A DNA stretch of 64,000 nt from Methylophaga sp. GTDB lineage: Bacteria; Pseudomonadota; Gammaproteobacteria; Nitrosococcales; Methylophagaceae. The DNA is taken from positions 124,001 through 188,000 of the forward strand of contig DRHW01000002.1 in assembly GCA_011053005.1 (NCBI GenBank), in the 5' to 3' direction. Below the pieces are notes generated by a model. It made no database searches, was not told the origin of the DNA, and worked only from the letters and a program-made list of their open reading frames with translations. Both the position numbers and the translations under genes were made by a program. Positions 8,862 to 58,152 of the stretch are shown here, piece after piece; position 1 is the stretch's first letter; each line of letters starts with the position of its first letter.

Positions 8862-11724
<2,863 letters not shown>

Positions 11725-11753
11725 TTGCAAACCCCAATCCTCGTCCGTATAAT
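11725..11753 (+). promoter_or_regulatory. sigma-70 promoter of the tRNA-Thr gene
   Basis: TTGCAA (11725-11730) and a consensus TATAAT (11748-11753) are separated by exactly 17 bases. The predicted start point lies about 8 bases before the tRNA 5' end. Confidence 0.85.
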
Positions 11754-11767
11754 GCTCATCTTTCGTT

Positions 11768-11843
11768 GCCGGTGTAGCTCAGTTGGTAGAGCATCTGATT
11801 TGTAATCAGAGGGTCGTAAGTTCAAGTCTTATCTCCGGCTCCA
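11768..11843 (+). tRNA. tRNA-Thr (anticodon TGT)
   Basis: A 76-base cloverleaf with encoded CCA is readable by hand: acceptor GCCGGTG, D-arm GCTC/GAGC, anticodon stem TCTGA/TCAGA around loop TTTGTAA, T-arm with TTCAAGT. The anticodon is TGT, reading ACA. Two oddities are a T6-T67 mismatch in the acceptor stem and T at the discriminator position 73. It stands alone, not in the common Thr-Tyr-Gly-Thr-tufB cluster, with its own promoter and terminator. Confidence 0.93.
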
Positions 11844-11862
11844 ACGAATTTGTAGAAATATC

Positions 11863-11898
11863 AAAGCCTTAGTGGATAAAACCTCTAGGGCTTTTTTA
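11863..11898 (+). terminator. terminator after tRNA-Thr
   Basis: A 10-bp stem (11863-11872 with 11885-11894, one G-T pair) and 12-base loop precede a run of T. Confidence 0.8.
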
Positions 11899-12120
11899 TT
11901 GCCTTTTTTCAATGTAATTCAGGTGCAACTTTCAATCTGCTTGTAATAGTTACGCCACAAGCAACACGCCAAGAAAAAGCCCAATACTTTCGCATCATGC
12001 TATTTGTTGCATCACTAAATTAATCAGACATTAAGTTATTCATCAGCCAATAAAATATTACTGACTAGTACTAAAGTACAATAGATATAGTAATAAAACC
12101 GCCATATTCTAAATCTTAGA

Positions 12121-12149
12121 TTGGACTTCCAGTCTTTTTAAATTAATTT
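12121..12149 (+). promoter_or_regulatory. possible promoter of the riboswitch transcript
   Basis: TTGGAC (12121-12126) and TAATTT (12144-12149) are 17 bases apart. Transcription from here would begin at about 12156, right before the aptamer, which is why I favour it although the -10 element is weak. Confidence 0.4.
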
Positions 12150-12159
12150 AAATATCAAT

Positions 12160-12236
12160 TAAAGCCAACCTTGGTGTGAACCAAGTTACGGAAAGCTTCA
12201 GGTCTTTAGTTCGCTACTAAAGATAGCTGGGTTGCA
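12160..12236 (+). promoter_or_regulatory. c-di-GMP-I (GEMM-I) riboswitch aptamer
   Basis: The sequence follows the GEMM-I consensus in order: a GCCAACC segment, a hairpin TTGGT/ACCAA capped by a GTGA (GNRA) tetraloop, the conserved ACGxAAAGC core, then a second hairpin (TCTTTAG/CTAAAGA), and a closing TAGCTGGGTTGC that pairs back to the start. One core base differs (ACGG for ACGC). It sits in the 5' leader of a PEP-CTERM-type surface protein, a known target class for this riboswitch. The ribosome site begins only about 12 bases after the aptamer, which suggests control of translation initiation; no intrinsic terminator lies between. Confidence 0.85.
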
Positions 12237-12257
12237 TTTTTCTCTTAGGAAAATGTT

Positions 12258-12854
12258 ATGAAAAAAATATTACTTTTAGGCTCTTTATTATTAGCTGTAT
12301 CGGCGACTAGCACAGCTGCCACACTCACATTTGAAGGCCAAAACAATACTACATACACTAGCTCGATCGAGCGTGATGGATTTCGCATTGGAAATTCTAG
12401 CGGTCAAGAACAGCACTTTCATGAAATAGATAGTACTCAATACGGCTTAACTAGTAACGGTACGGGCGTTTTACTTAATGATAGAGATACGAACATATTT
12501 GTAGAAAGTGCTGTAGGCAGTGTTTTTTCTTTAACCAGCGTTGATGTCGCAGCTTCTCTTAGTAATTATCCTGCAAGTTCTATTGTGATAGAGGGTTTTT
12601 TGGGCGGTCTTTCTGTTGGTACTATAAGCGCAATATTTTCTTCAAACTTTATTACACTTAGTGGTGCCTCACTAGGTAATTTAGATAAACTCGTATTTGA
12701 TGGTATTGGTTTAGAAGGTGGCTTTGAACTTGATAATTTAGTCTTAGGCCCAGCTGTTTCAGCTGTACCTATCCCAGCCGCAGCCTTCTTATTTGCACCA
12801 GCATTACTAGGTTTTATGGGCTTACGTCGTAAAGCTAAAAATACAGTCGCTTAA
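12258..12854 (+). CDS. PEP-CTERM-type sorted surface protein
   Basis: The 198-residue product has a Sec signal peptide (MKKILLLGSLLLAVSATSTAA), a Gly/Ser/Asn-rich β-type body and a C-terminal sorting tail: VPIPAAA, a hydrophobic segment (FLFAPALLGFMGL) and RRK. This VPxPAA variant of the PEP-CTERM signal is recognised by exosortase, which is not encoded in the window. Such proteins go to the surface or the extracellular matrix of exopolysaccharide producers. The AGGAA ribosome site at 12248 lies right behind the c-di-GMP aptamer. The body resembles no domain that I know. A terminator follows. Confidence 0.82.
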   Translation: MKKILLLGSLLLAVSATSTAATLTFEGQNNTTYTSSIERDGFRIGNSSGQEQHFHEIDSTQYGLTSNGTGVLLNDRDTNIFVESAVGSVFSLTSVDVAASLSNYPASSIVIEGFLGGLSVGTISAIFSSNFITLSGASLGNLDKLVFDGIGLEGGFELDNLVLGPAVSAVPIPAAAFLFAPALLGFMGLRRKAKNTVA

Positions 12855-12876
12855 GTCATGACTCTCCAAAGTATCT

Positions 12877-12909
12877 AAGCCGTAGTGATTAACTTCATTA
12901 CGGCTTTTT
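12877..12909 (+). terminator. terminator of the PEP-CTERM gene
   Basis: An 11-bp stem (12877-12887 with 12896-12906, one G-T pair) with 8-base loop precedes five T. Confidence 0.85.
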
Positions 12910-13230
12910 GTTAATGACGATCATTTATCGACAGGTCAGCTATTGTTCTAGCTGTGAAAAATTTAACTGCCCCCCATACTAATAACATGGGGGTTACTTC
13001 ACCGTTATTAGACCTCTACACTACTTTACGCTCAACATCTATGCTGTGGCTTTCTAGCGGATTTGGTTTACTTGTCATAATGCTATTAGTTTAATATTGA
13101 GCATATCTTTTAACGTATTATTTATGCCATTAATGGACAATCGATGTAATAAACGATATCTTTTAACGCATTGTTAATATGAATCCATAAGAATTTTAGA
13201 GATCATCTAAAGCTTAAAAAGGAATGCTAA
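12910..13230. repeat. intergenic region with a GC hairpin and a 13-base direct repeat
   Basis: No gene is seen. A 7-bp stem (12971-12977 with 12987-12993) forms a C/G-rich hairpin without a T-run. The 13-mer ATATCTTTTAACG occurs at 13103-13115 and again at 13156-13168, exactly 53 bases apart and on the same strand, upstream of the gene at 13231. The spacing is close to five helical turns and could suit a cooperative regulator. Confidence 0.5.
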
Positions 13231-13566
13231 ATGACCAACCAACAGTTTCGATCTATTGATATTATTCCAGGGCAGAATTGTAATTGTCCTTTGTCGAAAC
13301 ATGCAGGCAAGCGAGTTCTTTACAGCGAAGTGACTGAATTATTAAAAAGCTCACAATCAACTTGCAGCTGCACATTCCAGCATTATGATGACCGCAGACA
13401 TAAAGCAGATAGAAGAACATTTGATATTGAAAGTATGGCATCAAACATCCACGGACGAACTCGCCCTTATGGCAGACGACAAGCCGATATACATAATCGT
13501 GCCCGCGATCCTTATACCAAAATCAGAATGAGAGCCGCATTCGAAGCAATGCAACATCCAAGATAA
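13231..13566 (+). CDS. conserved small Cys/Arg-rich protein, unknown function
   Basis: The 111-residue protein begins with a CNCP pair, continues GKRVLYSEVTELLKS and has a second Cys pair CSCTFQHYDDRRHKADRR, followed by an Arg-rich tail. The pattern CxC ... GKR-L ... CxC-F-HYDDRR-x4-RR recalls an unnamed proteobacterial family. The two Cys pairs could bind a metal. No signal peptide or membrane segment is seen. ATG 13231 follows AAAAGGAA at good spacing. It stands alone, with a direct-repeat motif upstream and a terminator behind. Confidence 0.6.
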   Translation: MTNQQFRSIDIIPGQNCNCPLSKHAGKRVLYSEVTELLKSSQSTCSCTFQHYDDRRHKADRRTFDIESMASNIHGRTRPYGRRQADIHNRARDPYTKIRMRAAFEAMQHPR

Positions 13567-13624
13567 TATCGTTTTCACTAATACCTTGCTTGCGTAAGTA
13601 TTAAAAACGAATTCGTATAATAAT

Positions 13625-13660
13625 TAAAGCCTAAGCAGATAAGCCTGCTAAGGCTTTTTT
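13625..13660 (+). terminator. terminator after the Cys/Arg-rich gene
   Basis: AAGCCTAAGCAG pairs with CTGCTAAGGCTT with one unpaired base, followed by TTTTT. Confidence 0.75.
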
Positions 13661-13942
13661 ATTGTCTATTATTCAGTTGATGACAACGTTATATGGTGGA
13701 ACACTTTTTACTCTCTTTCACATAAAACTGCTCATACGGAAGATTAATAAGGTGTGTGTCTAGCAAAGTATGGGAAGTCCAAAGATTAGCTTTTAAATAG
13801 ATTAATAAAAGACGAGTTGTGCTTCCAATTTAATTTCGGCTATTTCAAAGCGTAACCACTTTATAGCTATTTCAATGATGTGGAAGAATTGATCGATATG
13901 AGGCTGAATAAATTGTTGGAGAATGGGCAGTCAAAATAATCG
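13661..13942. other. intergenic region, no intact gene
   Basis: AT-rich spacer. A plus-strand frame near 13826-13937 (reading YFNDVEELIDMRLNKLLENG) looks coding-like but contains a stop and has no start. It could be a decayed gene end; nothing more can be supported. Confidence 0.4.
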
Positions 13943-14365
13943 TTAGTCTACTCGACAATATTGACCAGATGCATCGGAGATATACAACTTGATATTGTCA
14001 TGCATTTCTAAATGAGCAATCCACCATTTTTTGAGAAATCTTAACACCAGATCTGGCTCTTTATTGAATAATGCTTCTCGGCATATCGCTTTAAATTCGA
14101 TAATAACTTTCTCATTCTTTTTAATATATTCGTCAAGATGAGGGTAATCAGCTGCCCGTAAAATTCCCTCCTCGGTACTATTATGGAATCTAAGATAACT
14201 AAGTAGTAATTTGACCGTTGGCATCAATATCTCTAGTGCATGTCCTTGCTGTAAAAAGTAATGCAGTGAATTTATTGTTGCAAGTAAAGCATGATGCTGT
14301 TCATCAATAATTGACTCGTCTTGTTCAAATGATTCCTGCCAAATAATATATAGCGTCTTTTTCAT
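13943..14365 (-). CDS. hemerythrin-like protein with degenerate iron site
   Basis: The 140-residue four-helix protein matches bacteriohemerythrin in length and order of motifs: IIDEQHHAL (H24), RFHNSTEEGIL (H61, E65), a DYP turn (73-75), and WWIAHLEMHDNIKLY (H118, D123). In normal family members the YP turn is followed by H-x3-H, two ligands of the di-iron site. Here those positions are Y80 and N84. H76 is nearby but two residues after the Tyr. The protein may bind one iron, or none, or have become a sensor. ATG 14365 has a distant AGAGG. It is divergent from the PAS-GGDEF-EAL gene, 142 bases away, suggesting shared regulation. Confidence 0.82.
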   Translation of the reverse strand: MKKTLYIIWQESFEQDESIIDEQHHALLATINSLHYFLQQGHALEILMPTVKLLLSYLRFHNSTEEGILRAADYPHLDEYIKKNEKVIIEFKAICREALFNKEPDLVLRFLKKWWIAHLEMHDNIKLYISDASGQYCRVD

Positions 14366-18427: not shown

Positions 18428-19477
18428 ATGAGAAAAAAACTCATCACTCTCGTCTGCGTTATGGCGATGCCCATATCTAGTTATGCCATAGATACTGTAG
18501 AAACACTTGATGGCGGCGTTTTAACAGGCACAATAACCTCTATTACTAAAAAAACACTCATCTTAGAAACAAGTTATGCAGGTGATATCACTCTGCAACG
18601 CAGTCAAATCAAAGGGTTTGATACCGATCAAACCGTATTTGTAAGACTACAAAATGGGGCAACGTTAGAAGGTCAAGTCCATCACGATGGTGATGGTCAA
18701 CTTAGCATCACTGATCAGGATGAGACTATAACGACAGCAACAAAAACGGTGGTTGAAACTTGGCAAACAGAAGCAACTGATCCACAAATATTACGAACCC
18801 AAGCAAAAATTGATAACTTGCAAGGCACTTGGTCATATCAAGCTTCATTGGACATTGTCGGTAAAAAAGGTAATTCAGATCAATTTGGAGCCAGTGTTTT
18901 ATTAGATGCTACACGCAAAAGTATCAAAGATACTTTGAAGTTTTACGGCTCATTAGAAAAAGAGACTAAAAACGATGTCGATACTGCTGACGAAATTATT
19001 CTAGGTTCAGAATACACCGCTTATTATGCTGATCCTTGGGGTTGGTATGTACGTGGCGAAGTTGAACAAGATGACTTTGAAAACCTTGATCTGCGTACTA
19101 TCTTAGGTTCAGGTTTAAATTATCGTGTGTTTAATGAAGAAGATCATTCTCTTGAATTACGTTCTGGTCTTGGTTATCGTCACGAAAGCTTTAATGATGG
19201 CACCACTGAAAGCTCACCCACATTAGATTTTGGTTTAGCACACGAATGGCAGTTTGCAGATTGGGCAAGAATGACAAACCAATTAACTTACGCACCCGCG
19301 ATTAATGATTTTGCTGACTACCTTCTAACGCACGATTCAGGCGTTAATATTCCAATAGGTTTTTCAAATTATTGGAATTTAAGATTTGGTTTGCGTAACG
19401 ATTATAAAAGCTTGCCTGCTGACGGTCGTGAAAAGTTAGATACTAGCTATTATTCTCGCCTTCAATTGAAATGGTAA
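18428..19477 (+). CDS. DUF481 outer-membrane β-barrel protein
   Basis: The 349-residue product has a signal peptide ending in SSYA, an N-terminal region of two short SH3-like repeats (LDGGVLTGTITSI and LQNGATLEGQV) and a DUF481 β-barrel from about residue 130 (WSYQASLDIVGKKGNSDQFG) with alternating strands to a C-terminal aromatic residue (YYSRLQLKW), as expected for BAM-inserted proteins. Function in the family is unknown; some members are induced by salt or acid. ATG 18428 follows AAGGA at 11 bases. It is monocistronic, with a strong terminator. Confidence 0.85.
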   Translation: MRKKLITLVCVMAMPISSYAIDTVETLDGGVLTGTITSITKKTLILETSYAGDITLQRSQIKGFDTDQTVFVRLQNGATLEGQVHHDGDGQLSITDQDETITTATKTVVETWQTEATDPQILRTQAKIDNLQGTWSYQASLDIVGKKGNSDQFGASVLLDATRKSIKDTLKFYGSLEKETKNDVDTADEIILGSEYTAYYADPWGWYVRGEVEQDDFENLDLRTILGSGLNYRVFNEEDHSLELRSGLGYRHESFNDGTTESSPTLDFGLAHEWQFADWARMTNQLTYAPAINDFADYLLTHDSGVNIPIGFSNYWNLRFGLRNDYKSLPADGREKLDTSYYSRLQLKW

Positions 19478-36570: not shown

Positions 36571-36758
36571 CATTTAGCAAACAGTCATTACGTCTTGCCT
36601 TCGAAACAATACCTAATTCCACGCCATACTGCCAATAAATAACACTATAACGTTCATCTACTCTTGCGTTTAATTGTCTTTCTAATACATGAACTGAATC
36701 ACCTAAAGTAGATTTTGATTCCGCTTAACCGTCCGCTTCGTGCCAAAAGCGGTCATTC

Positions 36759-36818
36759 GTTTAACGCCTCAATAACGAGCAGTAAAAGCGAAGGCGAGCG
36801 TTGATTGATTTGTTATGC
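36759..36818 (-). mobile_element. integron attC recombination site
   Basis: Read on the minus strand this 60-base site has the full attC fold. R'' GCATAAC pairs with the canonical R' GTTAAAC (AAC with GTT). Then comes an unpaired spacer (AAA against GGC), L boxes TCAAT and ATTGA, one extrahelical C, and AACG paired with CGTT, around a 21-base variable loop. The size and layout resemble the aadA-type attC sites. It overlaps the stop codon of the gene at 36813-37988, as expected at the 3' end of a cassette. No integrase gene is in the window. Confidence 0.8.
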
Positions 36819-37988
36819 CTTTCTCTCGCTCATTCGCTTCTTTCGATTACTTTCAATTTCAATGCAAAATGGATCGGGCTCGAACATTTCATGAAAATCA
36901 CTTTCGAGGGTAGAAATCATTCGATTGAGGCTGCCAATTAACTTGTTCGTATTTTCTATAGTTTCCCTTATTAGATCGCCTTTTTCTATGTTGCTATCTC
37001 CGCTTTCTTCAACATAACGTTGAGTGGCAACGCTTCCATCATGCTCATAGACATGCCGGCGGAAGAACATTTTTCTAACGAAGTCGCGATCGGCTGACAT
37101 GCCCTTCAATAAATTGATGTCAAAACAAGATTTCAAAAGCTCATCAAATTTATCGAGATTGTGGAAAAGTAAACGATTTAACTGATTTCTTCGTGTCTCT
37201 TTCATAGGCACAAGGGAAATGAGTTGATCAACATAATCTCTAGCCGCTGAATCAAATTCTGATACTGATTGTTTTACGGCGTCATTCGGTGATAAGTACC
37301 CATCGACTAGTTGACCTCGGATTCTTTCTAAAGCGACTCGTTGAAATTCTGCAGTGTTTCTCCAACCGCATGATGAGCAATATCCATACCTGCCTCGAAC
37401 ATCATTGTAACTGTTGCATGTTGAGCAATTGAACTCTGTTTGCTGCGCAATAGATGTGTAATAGAAATCAGGCCTTGGGGCATCTGTTATTGAATCAGCA
37501 ATAGAGTTCATATCAATAACAACTTCACTGTTAGAGTCTGGAGAAGCTTCGTATATGGCTGTGTGTAAGGACTCGAGATAATGTGAGATATATGACTTCT
37601 GTGGCGGAGTTATAAAATGATATGACTCTGCTCTAGTGCCACAGTATGGGCAAGTTAATGAAGATCTAGCAGGGATACCGTCAGAGCGAAAATGTTTTTT
37701 GCAATCGGGGCATTCATGGCCGAATTTTCCTTGTGAATCAGAAGCCATCAATACAGCTATGCAATTTGGGAAAGGAGGTGTATTCCAAGGTTCACCGATT
37801 CCACCCATTACTATATTTCCGCAGGCAAACCCTTCTGGGTGAGCATAAATTCCTACAAGGCTTACTGGTCGCGGGGAAGAATGTGAGTAGCCTATTTGAT
37901 AGCTAACTCGACCACTCTCATCACAAACGATGGTAAAAGTAACTTTTCCACCTGTGTGCCCGATTTCGCTAAAGTCCTTTCTATTCAT
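36813..37988 (-). CDS. cassette-borne zinc-ribbon and HEPN-like protein
   Basis: The 391-residue protein is not recognised as a whole. It has two zinc-ribbon-like Cys quartets (C93-x2-C96 with C113-x2-C116; C188-x2-C191 with C204-x2-C207). The helical C-terminal third has FFRRHVYEHDGSVATQRYVEE at about 308-328: R-x4-H (R311, H316) in a sequence very like HEPN RNase domains of the MAE_18760 type. RNA cleavage is therefore possible but inferred from one motif. A strong AAGGAGG precedes ATG 37988. The gene is bounded by GTTTAAC repeats at 36759 and 38002 and ends in attC, so it sits in a mobile cassette of about 1.24 kb. Confidence 0.6.
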   Translation of the reverse strand: MNRKDFSEIGHTGGKVTFTIVCDESGRVSYQIGYSHSSPRPVSLVGIYAHPEGFACGNIVMGGIGEPWNTPPFPNCIAVLMASDSQGKFGHECPDCKKHFRSDGIPARSSLTCPYCGTRAESYHFITPPQKSYISHYLESLHTAIYEASPDSNSEVVIDMNSIADSITDAPRPDFYYTSIAQQTEFNCSTCNSYNDVRGRYGYCSSCGWRNTAEFQRVALERIRGQLVDGYLSPNDAVKQSVSEFDSAARDYVDQLISLVPMKETRRNQLNRLLFHNLDKFDELLKSCFDINLLKGMSADRDFVRKMFFRRHVYEHDGSVATQRYVEESGDSNIEKGDLIRETIENTNKLIGSLNRMISTLESDFHEMFEPDPFCIEIESNRKKRMSERKA

Positions 37989-38001
37989 TAAGCCTCCTTA
38001 T

Positions 38002-38008
38002 GTTTAAC
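38002..38008 (-). repeat. cassette-boundary-like GTTTAAC core site
   Basis: GTTTAAC (GTTAAAC on the minus strand) repeats the attC core at 36759-36765 and lies 5' of the zinc-ribbon/HEPN-like gene. The two copies enclose that gene precisely. A related pair, ATCTAAC (38375-38381) and GTTAAAC (38400-38406), lies 5' of the nucleotidyltransferase gene. These sites lack a full attC fold, so they may be worn-down or truncated sites. Confidence 0.4.
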
Positions 38009-38040
38009 GTCCCCTTCGATTCATTAAACATTTTTTAAAT

Positions 38041-38358
38041 TTATTCCTCGTACACAAGCAGACATGCTTCTAAAAGTCCCTTGTTAATCAAGTCAGTATT
38101 TTCACCATCGTTCCATTCTGCCTGAACTTCGTAAGGTATTAGCTCATTGAGTTCTTTCGACCATTTATCGGAATTTCTCATCCAAGCAGATAGGCCGCCA
38201 CATTCATCCAAGCCTTGAATCAACTCGATAGCAACATCCAAATCACTATCTTCTCGATTCGCACCTTTTACGCGACTACCAAAAAACTGAACATTTTTGA
38301 TTTCTGGTTTTTTCCTTGCCCATTCTGAAACAAGATGAGCTGCTTGATTAATATCCAT
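38041..38358 (-). CDS. small MNT-type nucleotidyltransferase
   Basis: The 105-residue protein has the minimal nucleotidyltransferase signature FFGSRVKGANREDSDLDVAIE (about 25-45): GS, then D-x-D, the metal-binding pair. MNT proteins often pair with HEPN toxins and add nucleotides to them, or act alone with unknown substrates; many occur in integron cassettes. The next gene in the same direction, 52 bases on, is the HEPN-like gene. ATG 38358 follows AGGA. Function beyond fold is not established. Confidence 0.8.
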   Translation of the reverse strand: MDINQAAHLVSEWARKKPEIKNVQFFGSRVKGANREDSDLDVAIELIQGLDECGGLSAWMRNSDKWSKELNELIPYEVQAEWNDGENTDLINKGLLEACLLVYEE

Positions 38359-38429
38359 TGTTGGTCCTGATTAAATCTAACAGTATGTTTTATGAGGTCG
38401 TTAAACATCTTAACAATTGTATCGACTGA

Positions 38430-56175: not shown

Positions 56176-58152
56176 ATGGCATTAGACAGTGAAGACGAGA
56201 TCCTACAAGACTTTTTAGTTGAAGCAGATGAAATTTTAGAGGGCCTAAATGAACAACTTGTTGCATTAGAAACTCAACCACAAAATAGTGATTTATTAAA
56301 TTCTATTTTCCGTGGTTTTCATACCATTAAAGGTGGTGCAGGATTTTTAAGTCTAGATGCGATGGTCGCGCTATGTCATAAAGGTGAAGATGTCTTTAAC
56401 ATTCTACGTCAAGGTGATCGTGCTGTTGATGCTGAAATGATGGATACCTTCCTCAAAGTACTCGATATCCTTAATCAGATGTTTGTAGAGACCAAATCAG
56501 GTGAATATCCTAGTCCAGCTGATCCTGCAATATTAGCCCATCTTGCTAGCTATCTTGAGCCTGTAACCGCTGTTGTTGCTCCAGTTATTCCTGAGCCGGT
56601 TAGCGTACCCGTTGTTGCTGAAACTGCGCCGGAAGCAAGCGATAGCGATGATATTACTGATGAAGAATTTGAAGCATTATTAAATCAATTACATGGTGAT
56701 GGTGCGCCGGGCGTGGTGGCTCCACCTACCTCTCCAACTTCTGCCCCAGCACCGGCTGCTACTGCAAAAAATGATGATGACATCACCGAAGAAGAATTCG
56801 AAGCCTTACTTGATGAATTACAGGGTAAAAAGAAAGCCACTGAGGCTCCAGCTCAACAACCCAAGATAGAAGAAAGCGCTGCGGTTACTGAACCCGTTAT
56901 AAAAACAATTGCACCAGCAGCTAAAGTAGATATCGCTGCCACTGATATAGCGGCAAAACCTGCCGCTGCAGTCAAACAAGCGGAAACAAGTGTCCGTGTT
57001 GATACCGCTCGTTTAGATGAAATTATGAATATGGTCGGCGAATTGGTGCTGGTTCGGAATCGTATTAATACTTTAGAAGCCACCTTCGAGAATGAAGAAA
57101 TGGCAAAAGCGGTCAATAATCTTGCCGTGGTAACTGCCGATTTACAAAATGCGGTGATGAAAACCCGTATGCAACCTATAAAAAAGGTCTTTGGTCGTTT
57201 TCCACGCGTTGTTCGTGATTTAGCCCGTAGTTTGAAAAAAGACATAAATCTAGAGCTTCGTGGTGAAGAAACAGATTTAGATAAAAACTTGGTTGAAGCA
57301 TTGGCTGATCCATTAGTCCATTTGGTTAGAAATGCGGTTGATCATGGCGTTGAAATGCCAGATGTTCGTGAAAAAGCAGGTAAATCCCGTCAAGGTTTAG
57401 TCGTGCTGGCTGCTGCTCAAGAAGGCGATCATATCTTGCTGACCATTTCGGATGATGGTGCGGGTATGGATGCAAATATTTTGCGTCAAAAAGCAGTAGA
57501 AAAAGGCATGATGGATGAGGAGACGGCTTCGCGCCTTACGGACTCTGAAAGCTATGCGTTGATCTTTGCTCCAGGATTTTCGATGAAAGCCGAAATCTCC
57601 GATATATCTGGTCGCGGCGTTGGTATGGACGTAGTTAAAACCAGTATTTCTAAACTTAATGGTGTAATAGACATTAAGTCCGAAGTCGGTGTTGGCACAA
57701 CACTATCAATTAAAGTCCCGTTGACATTGGCTATTATGCCTACATTAATGGTCATGTTAGGCAATCAGATTTTTGCTTTTCCACTCGTCAGCGTCAATGA
57801 AATATTTCATTTAGATTTAACTAAGACACATGTAGTCGATGGTCAAAGAACGATCATGGTCCGTAAAAAAACATTACCTTTATTCTATTTGAGAAAATGG
57901 CTGGCGAGCTCATTTAAACCTACGGGTAAACCTGAAATCGAACATGTTGTTATTGTCAATGTAGGCACGCAACGTGTAGGCTTCGTGGTAGATCAATTAA
58001 TTGGTCAAGAAGAAGTGGTCATCAAGCCGTTAGGCGCCCTACTTCAAGGCACTAAAGGTCTAGCTGGGGCAACGATTACCGGTGATGGTCGTATTGCACT
58101 TATTCTTGATTTCCCTGAATTAATGAATACCTATGCCAATCGAGGCTATTAA
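56176..58152 (+). CDS. cheA: chemotaxis histidine kinase CheA
   Basis: The 658-residue kinase has an HPt domain with H49 (GFHTIKGGAGF), a linker with two copies of DDITxEEFEALL (about 157-168 and 197-208), a dimerisation domain from about 276 (DTARLDEIMNMVGELVLVRNRI), an ATPase domain with N386 in LVRNAVDHG and G boxes, and a C-terminal CheW-like domain (about 510-650). It phosphorylates CheY and CheB in response to receptors. The usual separate P2 domain is not obvious and may be replaced by the repeated peptide linker. Confidence 0.95.
   Translation: MALDSEDEILQDFLVEADEILEGLNEQLVALETQPQNSDLLNSIFRGFHTIKGGAGFLSLDAMVALCHKGEDVFNILRQGDRAVDAEMMDTFLKVLDILNQMFVETKSGEYPSPADPAILAHLASYLEPVTAVVAPVIPEPVSVPVVAETAPEASDSDDITDEEFEALLNQLHGDGAPGVVAPPTSPTSAPAPAATAKNDDDITEEEFEALLDELQGKKKATEAPAQQPKIEESAAVTEPVIKTIAPAAKVDIAATDIAAKPAAAVKQAETSVRVDTARLDEIMNMVGELVLVRNRINTLEATFENEEMAKAVNNLAVVTADLQNAVMKTRMQPIKKVFGRFPRVVRDLARSLKKDINLELRGEETDLDKNLVEALADPLVHLVRNAVDHGVEMPDVREKAGKSRQGLVVLAAAQEGDHILLTISDDGAGMDANILRQKAVEKGMMDEETASRLTDSESYALIFAPGFSMKAEISDISGRGVGMDVVKTSISKLNGVIDIKSEVGVGTTLSIKVPLTLAIMPTLMVMLGNQIFAFPLVSVNEIFHLDLTKTHVVDGQRTIMVRKKTLPLFYLRKWLASSFKPTGKPEIEHVVIVNVGTQRVGFVVDQLIGQEEVVIKPLGALLQGTKGLAGATITGDGRIALILDFPELMNTYANRGY

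Follow-up and report, generated by a model that had tools for sequence, protein, structure and literature searches.

AbiV, the prophage protein HepS, and Csm6 are HEPN proteins of phage defence. Phage-defence cassettes of integrons have reportedly been described by Kieffer et al. (doi 10.1126/science.ads0915) and Darracq et al. (doi 10.1126/science.ads0768). Storage of phage defence in integrons is established (references in PMC13092281), and of the 31 defence systems newly validated in PMC13092281, 4 have HEPN domains. A 2013 paper lists HEPN genes carried by integron cassettes, among them the protein of PDB entry 3jrt, and defines the domain by an R-x4-6-H motif that closes helix 3 (PMC3710099). 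In the type VII toxin-antitoxin system MntA-HepT, the nucleotidyltransferase MntA modifies a tyrosine in the HEPN motif RX4HXY (PMC7641770).

We analysed a 64,000-nucleotide stretch of a Methylophaga sp. contig (the window, whose coordinates are used below) that carries, on its minus strand, a gene for a 391-residue zinc-ribbon protein with a HEPN-like C-terminal half. The locus resembles the described phage-defence cassettes of integrons in having an attC cassette, a probable defence cargo, and a Septu cassette in the same genome, but its protein is recognized by no named family and the cassette stands alone outside an array. It shares with 3jrt a HEPN-type gene in an integron cassette; whereas PMC3710099 lists the 3jrt family as HEPN with no additional domain, the window protein has 391 residues and two zinc ribbons, a contrast that goes by the description in that source. 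As in MntA-HepT (PMC7641770), an MNT gene with a GS-x10-D-x-D motif lies ahead of a HEPN-like R-x4-H gene, but the window protein has no tyrosine after the motif, a large N-terminal part, and no conserved neighbourhood. The PADLOC model PDC-M14A matches the two-zinc-ribbon part of the window protein; it has 152 positions, however, leaves the HEPN part uncovered, and lacks its PDC-M14 partner gene among the proteins scanned, which were part of the neighbours. AbiV, HepS, and Csm6 give fold matches to the window protein (Z 6.9, 6.5, and 7.2) but no sequence match by profile, and they carry other accessory domains. A limited survey of open-access papers, mainly at the level of titles and abstracts, turned up neither this protein family nor its occurrence across integrons, phages, and restriction islands. 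The locus adds a candidate HEPN-like family that sequence profiles miss, one half of which is sensor-like and carries zinc ribbons, and whose members lie in integrons, on phage contigs, and on plasmids; to the defence genes stored in integrons it adds an apparent lone cassette outside an array.

Anatomy of the cassette

The attC site spans 60 bases on the minus strand (36759-36818) and reads, in minus-strand order, R' (GCATAAC, 36812-36818), a 3-nt spacer, the L' arm, the L'' arm, a second 3-nt spacer, and R'' (GTTAAAC, 36759-36765). Its L stem consists of 5+4 bp with one extrahelical C, and the topology is unchanged when the plus (bottom) strand is folded. The gene for the 391-residue protein occupies 36813-37988 on the minus strand, and its stop codon (36815-36813) falls inside R'. 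The R'' word GTTAAAC recurs beyond the start of the gene, at 38008-38002, where it forms a GTTRRRY-type box at the upstream cassette boundary, 13 nt ahead of the ATG, whose first base is 37988. An AAGGAGG at 37993-37999 on the minus strand, within the cassette, is a likely ribosome-binding site. Between its two G|TT crossover points the cassette covers 36765-38007 of the minus strand, 1,243 bp with one gene; its G+C content is 41.2% versus 39.6% in the window, and composition gives no foreign signature.

An earlier, sequence-only reading of this DNA had proposed an attC-bounded single-gene cassette here. Its feature coordinates were all correct when checked against the sequence, and the GTTTAAC copies that it placed at 36759 and 38002 flank exactly the 391-residue gene, although that spacing alone carries no weight. 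The cassette is borne out by two covariance models and by a homologue, 77% identical, that sits in an array next to an integrase gene. We conclude that the segment 36765-38007 is a gene cassette of the integron type that stands by itself in the chromosome, apart from the integrase of its genome.

Covariance models and controls

Two attC covariance models were built from integron sites within the same bacterial family, and the window site was in neither. R1 had 11 training sites, including 3 from the array of the 77% identical homologue, and R2 had 8, none from that array. The sites were chosen among matches of a box-and-stem finder in arrays, and the base pairs were written by hand, for R1 following RNAalifold. 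Both models are biased to short attC sites because they were trained on 11 and 8 short sites. Searched against the window, each model gave one match at E≤10, and in both cases this was 36759-36818 on the minus strand (R1, 22.8 bits, E 0.006; R2, 22.5 bits, E 0.005; the E-values are rough), exactly where the site had been noted. No second significant attC was detected beside it, the stretch ahead of the 38002-38008 box included.

Over the whole genome, the window site was the last of 7 matches to R1 (E 0.27, with 150 of 409 first-look candidates scored) and the fourth of 6 matches to R2 (E 0.24, with 150 of 250 scored); all the remaining matches fell on contigs C12, C26, and C32, the last of which holds the integrase array. 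Across 11 loci, R1 gave 49 matches that ran from 60.2 down to 16.3 bits, 9 of the 11 training sites being included by construction; the weakest of them may be chance, and the window attC scores within the range of sites in real arrays. On a genome-wide scale the window attC would be insufficient alone; the argument rests on its position at the stop codon and on the homologue.

The word GTTTAAC was rejected as evidence in its own right: the genome holds 294 copies on the forward strand and 315 on the reverse (609 in all), below the counts of the reversed-word control (402 and 418), and the word is therefore uninformative. At a score of ≥12.5, the box-and-stem finder gave two sites in the window, the attC and a higher-scoring one at 19061, and in 40 shuffled windows a mean of 0.6 and a maximum of 3; under a stricter rule the shuffles gave 0.05 versus two in the window, one of these within coding sequence. 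We dropped the finder as sole evidence for the attC, because the second window site outscores it and the shuffles reach 3, and set aside the finder sites at 19061-19135 and 57695-57762 because R1 and R2 both fail to match them. The stability of the attC DNA fold is unremarkable (z +0.94; 170 of 200 shuffles were at least as stable), and fold energy was likewise discarded.

Zinc ribbons and a predicted HEPN domain

Both of the zinc ribbons proposed for the protein have invariant cysteines. In ribbon 1 (37641-37712, minus strand), C93, C96, C113, and C116 are invariant in alignment A3, which comprises five full-length members; in ribbon 2 (37368-37427, minus strand), C188, C191, C204, and C207 are invariant in alignments A1, A2, and A3. 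The N-terminal domain is predicted to be beta-rich, and its model gave no fold match (best VIA-align Z 3.7) and no viral match. PDC-M14A aligns with residues 79-209 at 28 bits. It also matches four of the eight relatives scanned, namely L063, L064, L060 (56 bits), and L055 (54 bits); no match was found in L065, L061, or L062.

The structure model and VIA-align place a HEPN-like domain at residues 212-371 (36876-37355, minus strand). For the whole protein the model has a mean pLDDT of 73.5; averaged over ten residues, the value lies between 75 and 93 across residues 211-390. The R311-x4-H316 motif (RHVYEH within RRHVYEH; 37041-37058, minus strand) ends helix 301-316, which is helix 3 of the predicted model, and R311, H312, and H316 are invariant in A1, A2, and A3. 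This placement agrees with the definition given in PMC3710099. At the top of the VIA-align list are 2hsb (Z 8.8), 1ufb (8.5), the HEPN-MNT complex 8xeh (8.1), and the sacsin HEPN domain (8.0). Six of the top ten rows are titled HEPN, and 1ufb, 1wty, and Csm6, which are among the top rows, we take to be HEPN. Another top-ten row, 1wwp, is a HEPN protein according to PMC3710099. Further down come AbiV and HepS, with MntA-HepT also there; a designed helical protein scores Z 7.1 in the same list, and helical bundles can reach such values by a common arrangement. PDB 3jrt is missing among the matches listed, which excludes nothing because the list was drawn from Foldseek's top 1000 chains. Foldseek alone gave no significant match (best E 0.35).

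HEPN was not recognized by sequence profile in Pfam, PADLOC, NCBIfam, or PDB sequences; Pfam and PADLOC did not recognize the HEPN part of the five family members, and PDB chains gave no sequence or profile match to the 391-residue protein. The HEPN-like C terminus of the sequence-only reading is thus upheld in its R-x4-H motif and by its predicted fold, but not as a similarity detectable by sequence profile, and it emerges from structure comparison only; the negative profile result is one of the outcomes that the reading itself had named as refuting it. On the predicted model, the C-terminal half is likely a HEPN domain.

Homologues in an array, on phage contigs, and beside a restriction gene

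The 77% identical homologue belongs to a genome of the same class and another family (L078). It lies between attC sites at 9402-9476 and 11019-11081 (R2, 32.3 and 21.8 bits); its own attC, at 10674-10745, scores 30.9 bits with R1 but is an R1 training site, and it is unlisted by R2 at E≤1. The stop codon of this homologue likewise falls within GCATAAC, and the gene at L078:7319-8212 is 45% identical over 298 residues to the IntI of the window genome. A search of 369 genomes matched 3 of them, the window's own, that of L078, and one with a weak 25% match (L051); within its own family the gene was found in the window's genome alone (1 of 57). A 72% identical homologue occurs in a groundwater Geobacter MAG (L019, one of 23 stretches), around which R1 recognized no attC. 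Upstream of the Geobacter homologue, behind another gene, the stretch L019:967-1025 is attC-like by eye; R1 does not recognize it.

Full-length relatives that are 54, 41, and 34% identical lie on three viral contigs (L063, L064, and L065; 3 of 14 stretches), and a second, alignment-based scan returned the same three contigs (4 of 67 stretches). Phage genes accompany them: terminase and primase genes on L063, a tape-measure gene on L064, where a tRNA-Gln precedes the homologue, and genes for a DNA transposition protein, a terminase, and an endolysin on L065. None of 50,697 phage records and none of the 4 stretches in a first viral scan matched. Partial or distant relatives were present in 3 of 72,556 plasmid records, two from Methylocystis and one from Emticicia, and, among 398 genomes of the phylum, in three others (L060, L061, and L062). 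Those in L061 and L062 match within the HEPN part only; the L060 relative immediately follows a gene for a restriction enzyme (Type_ISP_C, 364 bits; REase_MTase_IIG, 484 bits).

The MNT gene upstream of the cassette

A 105-residue protein is encoded at 38041-38358 on the minus strand. It had been taken for an MNT nucleotidyltransferase and does score above the Pfam cut-offs for Polbeta and NTP_transf_2, with a GS-x10-D-x-D motif that reads GS-RVKGANREDS-DLD. Both genes lie on the same strand, the MNT gene first, with a gap of 52 nt, and the sequence-only reading had proposed that they form a HEPN-MNT pair. Comparison did not support the pairing. Neither tblastn (best E 1.1 away from the window) nor a narrow motif scan detected an MNT gene in 12 stretches around homologues, some of them only 3-4 kb long, and the two genes were not seen together at these loci. 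The tyrosine position of RX4HXY is G318 in the window protein, invariant in A3, and against the MntA model the MNT protein scores 33.8 bits, under the cut-off of 60. With no MNT detected near the homologues and a glycine in place of the tyrosine, the features that define the pair are missing, though the gene order fits.

We therefore rejected a HEPN-MNT toxin-antitoxin as the primary reading, on the grounds of G318 and of the failure to detect MNT at the 12 loci. Within its family the MNT gene was found in 1 of 57 genomes, the window's; its relatives are on 11 plasmid records, and in the three inspected the adjacent genes are transposases, unnamed genes, a porin, and a regulator. The best reading of the MNT gene is that of an unrelated upstream neighbour of the cassette, which does not resemble a true partner, and the locus cautions against pairing a cassette gene with any adjacent toxin-antitoxin-like gene.

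Other integrons in the genome and the probable insertion site

A search for integron integrases gave 7 matches in the genome and none on the window's contig, in agreement with the earlier statement that the window holds no integrase. Only one match was above the cut-off (IntI, 425 bits); it lies with its array on contig C32. The cassette is in neither the intI array nor an attC cluster, since the window has one significant attC and intI is on another contig. Across the family, an integron integrase scores above the curated cut-off in 19 of 57 genomes. On C26, an attC ends a Septu unit (L087:3898-5961; PtuA, 628 bits; PtuB, 353 bits), in which the PtuB stop codon lies within GCATAAC and a weaker attC-like site (13.5 bits) sits just ahead of PtuA. 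A cassette of the C32 integrase array (L016:15859-16692) encodes a 277-aa protein that matches PADLOC Aga_Nuclease at 200 bits. PADLOC had no match for three other cassette-region proteins, all on C12, or for a transporter cassette; because some cassettes are without a match, defence-like genes are part, and not all, of the cassette cargo.

Contig C12 (L086) carries several attC sites at about 9965-14156, with no integrase detected on the contig, and is a probable CALIN. C40:24439-24618 holds a broken fragment of an integrase, containing two stops, and the same contig also bears an attC-like match (L018:8880-8951, 21.3 bits).

Just past the window attC is a hairpin repeat (36733-36754, minus strand), a dispersed element native to the family, with 9 occurrences spread over 7 of 57 genomes; one copy reads GTTAAAT at the would-be crossover. 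Lone cassettes inserted at secondary sites are known (PMC10127599), and by analogy with such insertions we read the GTT beside the hairpin repeat as a native insertion target. No empty site was found when the 275-bp downstream flank was compared with the 57 family genomes. The flank matched 3 other genomes of the 57, two in the hairpin region only and one over 127 bp, and none was a syntenic relative. Window positions 36628-36754 are 79% identical to part of another family genome, perhaps a gene remnant.

A candidate defence effector and the alternatives

We favour, if not strongly, a reading of the locus as a lone integron cassette that carries a single-gene abortive-infection effector of phage defence, of the HEPN RNase type, and that entered the chromosome by IntI insertion at a secondary site. 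IntI probably inserted the cassette at a secondary G|TT site. Since just 13 nt separate the boundary box from the ATG, transcription of the gene probably comes by read-through of the upstream MNT gene; there is one weak promoter-like match ahead of the MNT gene, and the region has 2 such matches versus 6.2 in shuffles. The N-terminal domain and the zinc ribbons would bind or sense nucleic acid or a phage product, and the N-terminal half would hold the HEPN domain silent until infection; upon infection the HEPN domain would cut RNA with R311 and H316 and so halt growth. The surroundings speak for a defence role, comprising the three phage contigs, the restriction-linked relative, the PDC-M14A matches, and the Septu cassette in the genome.

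That the attC is a chance match is very improbable. Its genome-wide E of about 0.25 and its not unusually stable DNA fold would be in keeping with chance, but it is the sole window match of two models, lies exactly on the stop codon, has a matching GTTAAAC box at the gene's other end, and recurs with the same stop-codon arrangement in the array of the 77% identical homologue. How the cassette came to its place leaves more room for doubt. The locus may be the remnant of a longer array, in which the MNT gene was once a second cassette whose attC has decayed and no secondary-site insertion took place; we regard this as possible though doubtful. With filters off, attC-like stretches do appear beside the MNT gene, at 38002-38089 (8.4 bits) and 38375-38406 (10.4 and 8.2 bits), yet such scores fall far short of the weakest array match listed (16 bits), and the native hairpin repeat starts immediately behind the attC. 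This alternative concerns the insertion alone and can be held together with a defence role.

The C-terminal half is unlikely to be some other helical bundle. The lack of a profile match, the modest VIA-align Z values with a designed protein at 7.1, and the nonsignificant Foldseek result would suit a bundle of that kind; against it, 6 of the top 10 VIA-align rows are titled HEPN, the others being HEPN by PMC3710099 or taken to be so, and R-x4-H sits where PMC3710099 places it. Less probable still is a HEPN-MNT toxin-antitoxin, in which the MNT protein would adenylylate and silence the HEPN RNase: the genes are adjacent on the same strand, MNT first and 52 nt apart, GS-x10-D-x-D is retained, and the complex 8xeh is among the best fold matches, but MNT was not detected in the 12 homologue stretches, the tyrosine of RX4HXY is replaced by the A3-invariant G318, the neighbour falls under the MntA cut-off, and the attC and boundary box part the two genes. 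A role outside defence, as a regulator, as an RNA-processing factor, or in the service of phages themselves, deserves more weight, although we think it the minority case. Three full-length relatives on phage contigs would fit such a role, and PDC-M14A is a candidate model only; the restriction-linked relative L060, the defence cassettes elsewhere in the genome, and the invariant catalytic-type motif point away from it.

As a tentative extension of the single-gene defence reading, a scattered family of two-zinc-ribbon HEPN nucleases might be a one-gene defence traded among integrons, phages, and restriction islands. In this genome the integrase would also drop such genes one at a time at GTT sites in the chromosome, downstream of resident genes, allowing expression outside the array; the MNT protein could then act as a secondary brake.

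Elsewhere in the window, a c-di-GMP-I riboswitch lies close to a tRNA gene (12154-12239, plus strand).
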